This document shows positions 62,677 to 63,042 of a DNA stretch of 64,000 nucleotides, one piece after another. Under the pieces are notes generated by a model. That model had not been told where the DNA came from, made no database searches, and worked only from the letters and a program-made list of their open reading frames with translations. Position 1 is the first letter of the stretch, and every line of letters starts with the position of its first letter. Source of the stretch: Candidatus Hydrogenedentota bacterium (GTDB lineage: Bacteria > Hydrogenedentota > Hydrogenedentia > Hydrogenedentales > JAEUWI01); NCBI GenBank assembly GCA_019637335.1, contig JAHBVV010000008.1, positions 1-64,000 of the forward strand, given 5' to 3'. The position numbers and the translations under genes are program-made.

Positions 62677-63042
62677 GGGGGGTAGGCTTTAGGCTTTAGG
62701 CTGGAGGCTTTAGGCAGGGACGAATAGCAGTTGACAGTTGACAGTTGACAGTTGACAGTTGACAGCTGACAGCTGGCGGTTGGCGGTTGGCGGTTGGGGT
62801 GGTGGAATGGGTGGTTGACCGGGGTGTTTGGGTGGCTATGTCGGGCAATCGAGGGAATCTATGGTTTGAATCTAAATTATTGATTGGACGAATTGCAAGC
62901 GGGCTGGTATGGTAAGGGGAAAACGTGGCTTAGATGCGCCTGTTCGTCCGTGGGATCATCGCTTGCGCGGGCAACCGCCAGGGCGCGCGAAGCCAGCGGT
63001 ACATTGGGCTTATTCCAATCAGGAAACATAAGGAGAGCTAAC
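62677..63042. promoter_or_regulatory. oxyR-katG divergent region
   Basis: It holds the tandem TAGGCTT-type repeat (62683-62715), heptamer array 3 (62728-62797), and an AT-richer stretch (about 62850-62890) that probably carries the katG promoter and OxyR site. No exact ATAG-N7-CTAT motif was found. The katG Shine-Dalgarno AAGGAG is at about 63030. Confidence 0.5.
62728..62797. repeat. Heptamer array 3 (10 units), without a cassette gene
   Basis: Five CAGTTGA, one CAGCTGA, one CAGCTGG and three CGGTTGG units run in the same outer-to-inner order and the same number (10) as array 1. No four-helix-bundle gene or second array follows. It may be an empty site or remnant of the cassette at 40531-41200. 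Confidence 0.9.

Follow-up and report, generated by a model that had tools for sequence, protein, structure and literature searches.

The window, by which we mean the whole stretch of 64,000 nucleotides that was analysed, comes from a draft Candidatus Hydrogenedentota genome of 7.16 Mb in 55 contigs. Its last part contains an oxyR-type gene and a katG-type gene, and two heptamer arrays lie between them (Table 1). Read 5′ to 3′, array 3 consists of four GACAGTT, two GACAGCT and three GGCGGTT units, which makes nine full units; array 1, an arm of the S23 cassette elsewhere in the window, consists of four GACAGTT and five GGCGGTT units, again nine in full. The original prediction, that these two arrays have the same unit series and the same copy number of about ten, holds apart from the two GACAGCT units, which are found only in array 3. 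It was also correct that array 3 has no cassette gene, there being no S23 gene beside it, and that next to it lies a different heptamer run, with 7 bp between its 5′ tip and the start codon of oxyR (62676). Array 3 has a period-7 score of 51, compared with a maximum of 8–10 in 20 Markov copies of the whole window, and its origin by chance is excluded; the TAGGCTT run scores 14 in the same test. Apart from array 3 and this run, period-7 arrays occur in the window only as arrays 1 and 2, the arms of the S23 cassette. The array 3 leader folds no better than shuffled sequences (z +0.96), and it has no short folding palindrome of the REP type.

Table 1. Positions of the genes and arrays discussed in the text.
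Feature	Position	Strand	Remarks
Nonamer array, AGGGACNNN type	32648..32704	+	Starts 4 bp past the stop of ORF 30817-32643; solo
Array 1	40531..40601	+	Downstream arm of S23-A cassette
S23-A	40616..40972	-	Four-helix-bundle gene, 118 aa; cognate gene of family A
Array 2	41029..41200	-	Upstream arm of S23-A cassette, inverted to array 1
oxyR-type LysR regulator	61756..62676	-	Leader holds both arrays; best match OxyR model, 283.8 bits, below cut-off of 329
TAGGCTT run	62683..62715	+	Short solo array, family B; cognate to S23 gene on contig C26
Array 3	62728..62797	+	Solo heptamer array, family A (GACAGTT -> GGCGGTT); oxyR leader, non-coding strand of oxyR
oxyR-katG spacer block AATCTAT...ATTGATTGGAC	62855..62897	.	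Kept in three congeners; probably promoter or operator
katG-type peroxidase gene	63043..64000	+	Divergent from oxyR; runs off window

The S23-A protein matches TIGR02436 (E 3e-29) and PF05635 (91 bits), and a profile of 13 family members including S23-A matches the structures 2gsc (XCC0516 of Xanthomonas) and 2rld; S23 proteins have two solved relatives in the PDB. The cassette has a UbiE-type methyltransferase gene on one side and a Maf gene on the other, and its transcript is predicted to fold into a long stem with the ORF in the loop (z −12). There are no other genes between the arms, and neither a transposase nor a reverse transcriptase in the cassette. The genome contains three strong S23 (PF05635/TIGR02436) genes in all. 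The one on contig C26 (S23-B) lies between inverted TTTAGGC arrays, which are the family of the TAGGCTT run, and the one on contig C1 lies between inverted arrays of the TGAATGG/TGAAGGG type; the three S23 genes match the three array families of the genome one to one. S23-B alone among them matches the Avd model, and does so weakly (41 bits against a cut-off of 80). S23-A orthologs or cassettes in three congeners occupy three different neighbourhoods, with arms abutting ORF edges. One congener (G003) has S23-A with short arms and yet gives no match to the family A probe, which counts against the explanation that we favour below.

A close ortholog of oxyR was found in two congeners among 60 related genomes, with 85% and 78% identity. 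Both have the same katG order and an oxyR–katG spacer free of arrays; a fixed array in distant relatives that have no S23 genes was not seen. The AATCTAT block is common to all three genomes, and the extra DNA of this genome sits between the block and the oxyR start. The congeners have GGAG-type Shine–Dalgarno sequences ahead of oxyR; here none is present ahead of the oxyR ATG, and the stretch is occupied by array sequence. The arrays have replaced the oxyR leader and displaced its Shine–Dalgarno sequence. Because the TAGGCTT run belongs to the family of the S23 gene on C26, and array 3 to the family of the S23 gene in the window, the oxyR site is a compound of two S23 families. Family A and family B arrays are also found no more than about 200 bp apart at C1:384.6k, C1:665.6k, C1:841.5k, C2:63.3k and C3:137k, making the array 3 site one compound site among many.

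Solo arrays in this genome were surveyed with probes, in targeted regions and in 400 kb of other sequence, and the census is thus partial and partly targeted. Three-unit probes gave 370 matches for family A and 62 for family B, where one array yields several matches; the reversed-pattern control says nothing for GACAGTT, since this heptamer reversed is one of its own rotations. Solo arrays of family C are present as well, and another 400 kb of this genome revealed no further period-7 families. The interpretations originally offered for array 3, namely a vacant landing site, a remnant, or a seed array from which cassettes form, fit these results poorly: solo arrays far outnumber S23 genes, the site has two array families, and no relative has an S23 gene at oxyR. 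Arrays without an S23 gene are the usual state in this genome. On our best reading, array 3 is not a vacant landing site. The proposed link between array 3 and the four-helix-bundle cassette is borne out, and is far more general than was first suggested. Array 3 looks like a dispersed solo copy, one of dozens scattered through the genome.

Array sites are patchily shared with the two congeners. Three (L176, L161b and L172) are empty in both; one (L162) is empty in one congener and degenerate in the other; one (L170) is shared with a different number of units; and one (L169) is shared with one congener. No target-site duplication is evident at the sites compared, where the flanks have diverged. 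At the L162 site a long heptamer array fills the space between the flanking genes in this genome; in both congeners (L201 in G001 and L198 in G003) that space holds a small ORF, absent here, which by reading only is globin-like. When arrays are oriented like the upstream arm of their S23 gene, and ORFs are called by a simple composition rule, the 5′ tip has an ORF edge no more than 50 bp away in 13 of 26 cases, and the 3′ end in 5 of 27. The stop codon often falls within the first array unit, as TAG in TAGGCTT or TGA in GTTGACA. The repeats of Xanthomonas and Nostoc are reported to lie nearer their 5′ neighbouring ORF, whatever its orientation (PMC4692102), and the polarity seen here agrees with this independently reported rule.

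The first three units of family A arrays are GACAGTT at a frequency of 0.78 and the last three at 0.43 (10 arrays against 4). Units at the 5′ tip are thus nearer the family consensus, which does no more than suggest growth there. Adenine-specific change of the type found in diversity-generating retroelements was considered, since 213 of 231 family A unit differences are at two A positions, yet was discounted because whole blocks of units are duplicated and most of the variation in family B is at T positions. Readings as phase variation, CRISPR or an ordinary IS element were set aside, as their defining features were not seen. Separately, we note a hairpin-like dispersed repeat, GGGCACGGTCAAGC...GCTTGGCCGTGGCACACC, often found ahead of family A arrays (L160, L161 at about 8170–8240, L164, L165 and L178). 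Family B arrays start in a T-run (L178 at 2914, L160 at 3090, L164 at 3282), as if tied to transcript ends; in L178 the T-run is the T-tract of a terminator-like hairpin.

A parallel system has a period of nine. The nonamer array of the window is of the type found beside a longer S23-like gene, L005, which together with L004 (G000, C28:44780 and C23:101626) encodes proteins of about 195–199 aa that match PF05635 weakly. The flanks of these two genes carry nonamer arrays, GTGGACAGA and GTAGTCCCT, in direct orientation, and solo nonamer arrays occur elsewhere, in the window and at L161, L163, L164 and L174.

The association was then examined in 80 S23 loci from many phyla, obtained by scanning species genomes with an S23 alignment, together with eight plasmid loci. 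Period-7 scores of at least 10 were found in the 250-bp window upstream of the S23 ORF in 27 of 77 loci and downstream in 30 of 76, as against 1–6 of about 70 for control windows 0.5–2.25 kb away. Periods of 8 and 9 occur at few loci, and other periods are nearly absent. In half of the loci (41/82) the downstream flank, once reverse-complemented, matches the upstream flank with a score of at least 14, compared with 0/82 when loci are swapped, and in 36 of these 41 the two arms have the same heptamer. On the S23-sense strand the arms are 40% G and 11% C. A few loci go against the inverted rule and have directly oriented arms; one (L057, in G022, C145) has long direct arrays around the S23 gene. 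S23 protein and heptamer are correlated significantly (p 0.01) but weakly (r 0.13), and no specificity code is therefore claimed.

The X. vasicola ortholog of XCC0516 (82% identity across 97 residues) is preceded by GGGAATC-type units and followed by their inverse, which stops at the start codon of the following gene; we take its neighbours to be accB and accC. An S23 gene in the same place has GGGATTC arms in Rhodanobacter and GTGATTC arms in Luteimonas. At these loci (L071, L072, L073 and L077) the two genes that flank the S23 gene stay the same while its two arms switch heptamer in step, and the downstream arm reaches the start codon of the next gene, leaving no space for a Shine–Dalgarno sequence. 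By sequence, the arm heptamers of the Xanthomonas, Rhodanobacter and Luteimonas S23 genes correspond to those of the dispersed repeats known from Xanthomonas. Dispersed arrays are present in five named genomes, mostly with the heptamer of the genome's own S23 arms. Between two Xanthomonas species 83% of array sites are common, which indicates that dispersal is slow there.

In a set of 119 genomes from the family of X. vasicola, at least 20 matches to GKGRWTC x3 were found in 32 of 54 genomes with S23 and in 4 of 65 without (Fisher P 2e-10, ignoring kinship). The S23 loci that were read in genomes without GKGRWTC arrays mostly have arms of other heptamers, and this led to the prediction of a second array type wherever the arms are GGGACYN. 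All five genomes with GGGACYN arms contain 40–290 GGGACYN matches, and eight with only GKGRWTC arms contain none. Three genomes with GKGRWTC arms (G089, G107 and G158) also have GGGACYN arrays; in G089 and G107 there is also a second S23 gene, whose arms are of the GGGAC type, and no second S23 gene was found in G158. Five further genomes (G068, G104, G168, G160 and G113) have arrays and no detected S23 gene, perhaps because the genes have been lost or the assemblies are broken at repeats. The link between arrays and S23 thus appears largely to hold on an array type that was not used to form it. As a rule each S23 gene goes with a heptamer of its own, and a genome's solo arrays largely carry the heptamers of the S23 genes present in it.

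Our best reading is a gene-plus-dispersed-repeat system, laid out in the manner of REP/RAYT and having no transposase. Cognate matching of genes and arrays, inverted arms, patchy presence among congeners, varied cassette neighbourhoods, array polarity and the loss of the Shine–Dalgarno sequence at oxyR all point to it. Besides G003, the genomes with arrays and no detected S23 gene, the second array type of G158, the loci with direct arms and the slow dispersal in Xanthomonas count against it. We consider it probable that the heptamers form a dispersed family in which array 3 is a solitary copy and the S23-A cassette the autonomous form, that the TAGGCTT run is a solo copy from the S23-B family, and that dispersal is driven by S23. 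According to Lin et al. (2006), cited in PMC4990558, the S23 protein of X. campestris forms a toroidal homopentamer. Such a ring would bind RNA or single-stranded DNA of the array's G-rich strand by way of a conserved core of 4–5 nt that recurs every 7 nt, with one 7-nt unit per subunit, and this would keep the period and the core while 2–3 positions per unit drift. Bound S23 would help to copy array DNA into new sites, where the arrays would settle with the 5′ tip against an ORF edge, at oxyR replacing the leader and the Shine–Dalgarno sequence. We infer the binding, its strand and the dependence of copying on S23; binding to the G-rich strand is plausible as the basic activity, and we offer as a hypothesis that it leads to array spread. 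More tentatively, and a little short of an even judgement, S23 proteins and their cognate arrays may constitute a widespread kind of mobile or dispersed element that has so far gone unrecognised. In it, a toroidal four-helix-bundle protein with no catalytic role would recognise a short repeat and direct the spread and extension of its arrays, and the rRNA intervening sequences (IVS) would be a special case within rRNA genes.

The main rival is a regulatory role with selection at gene edges, in which S23 could be a post-transcriptional regulator, the solo arrays in leaders and 3′ ends its selected binding sites, and oxyR a gene under its control. The location of arrays at gene starts and ends, the retention of period and core, and the conservation of most sites between the two Xanthomonas species would all agree with this, as would the translational role suggested for the Beggiatoaceae TAACTGA repeats in PMC4679880; against it, the congeners differ in whether an array is present at most of the sites compared, array 3 is of recent origin and has no structure, and the published surveys saw no functional theme among neighbouring genes (PMC4692102 and PMC4679880). 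We regard such a regulon as unlikely. A much weaker case can be made that array 3 is one arm of a former S23-A cassette at oxyR whose gene and second arm were lost: its heptamer series and unit number are those of array 1 and its orientation is like that of an arm, but there is no trace of S23 coding sequence or of a second arm at oxyR, both congeners have a plain spacer, and the genome has far more solo arrays than cassettes, which makes a remnant very improbable. Marginally less credible still is plain replication slippage, by which arrays would arise and grow without S23 and S23 genes would tolerate or accumulate them, since it accounts for block-wise unit variants and length differences but leaves unexplained why the arms are inverted and share one heptamer, why other periods are nearly absent, why arrays track S23 across genomes, and why arm and solo heptamers change together.

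The system of S23 genes and cognate arrays favoured here would bear on two problems. S23 or ‘23S rRNA intervening sequence’ proteins are widespread and, to our knowledge, have no known function, and the heptamer arrays of Xanthomonas, Nostoc, Beggiatoa and Geobacter have been described repeatedly with no cause given. Pairing the two would point to a specific candidate ligand for the S23 protein, namely its own heptamer, and to a candidate driver for the repeats, and so offers a testable origin for several known, unexplained bacterial repeat families. At oxyR, a gene leader is seen rewritten by such arrays.

In REP/RAYT (TnpA-REP) systems a gene lies between inverted copies of a repeat, and solo copies are scattered in the genome. 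S23 cassettes share the inverted flanking copies of a dispersed repeat; however, the gene is S23 and not a Y1/HUH transposase, and the repeat is an unstructured tandem heptamer array and not a short palindrome. Because transposase and palindrome are absent, we do not place the system under REP/RAYT despite the similar layout. Avd of diversity-generating retroelements belongs to the same S23-type four-helix-bundle superfamily, but S23-B is below the Avd cut-off and the cassette contains no reverse transcriptase. The IVS of Coxiella burnetii has tandem GACAGAT heptamers, variable in number, just ahead of the S23 ORF (PMC4990558). In IVS elements, which are S23 genes within 23S rRNA, the ORF is in the loop of an inverted terminal stem, as it is in the S23-A cassette; the S23-A cassette does not lie inside a 23S rRNA gene, from which IVS elements are removed by RNase III, and the cassettes here differ in being between ordinary genes, in having long arrays as arms, and in having dispersed solo arrays of the same heptamer.

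Dispersed heptamers have been described as GGGAATC in Xanthomonas and GGGGA(C/T)T in Nostoc (PMC4692102), as TAACTGA in Beggiatoaceae, cyanobacteria and Bacteroidetes (PMC4679880), and as heptamers and paired octamers in Geobacter (PMC2700814). Like the arrays here, these are tandem 7-mers that occur in numerous intergenic places, often in inverted pairs and near gene starts or ends, and our arrays, being many, dispersed, intergenic and tandem, are of the GGGAATC and TAACTGA type; the Xanthomonas and Nostoc repeats also have the same 5′-neighbour rule. The difference is that these three papers name no S23 gene in the text searched, whereas here the arrays go together with a cognate S23 gene. 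In a search that mostly lay outside subscription journals, no paper that links dispersed arrays to S23 genes came up. The parts are therefore known, as S23 ORFs in the IVS and as dispersed heptamers, and it is the pairing of S23 with the arrays that appears to be new.
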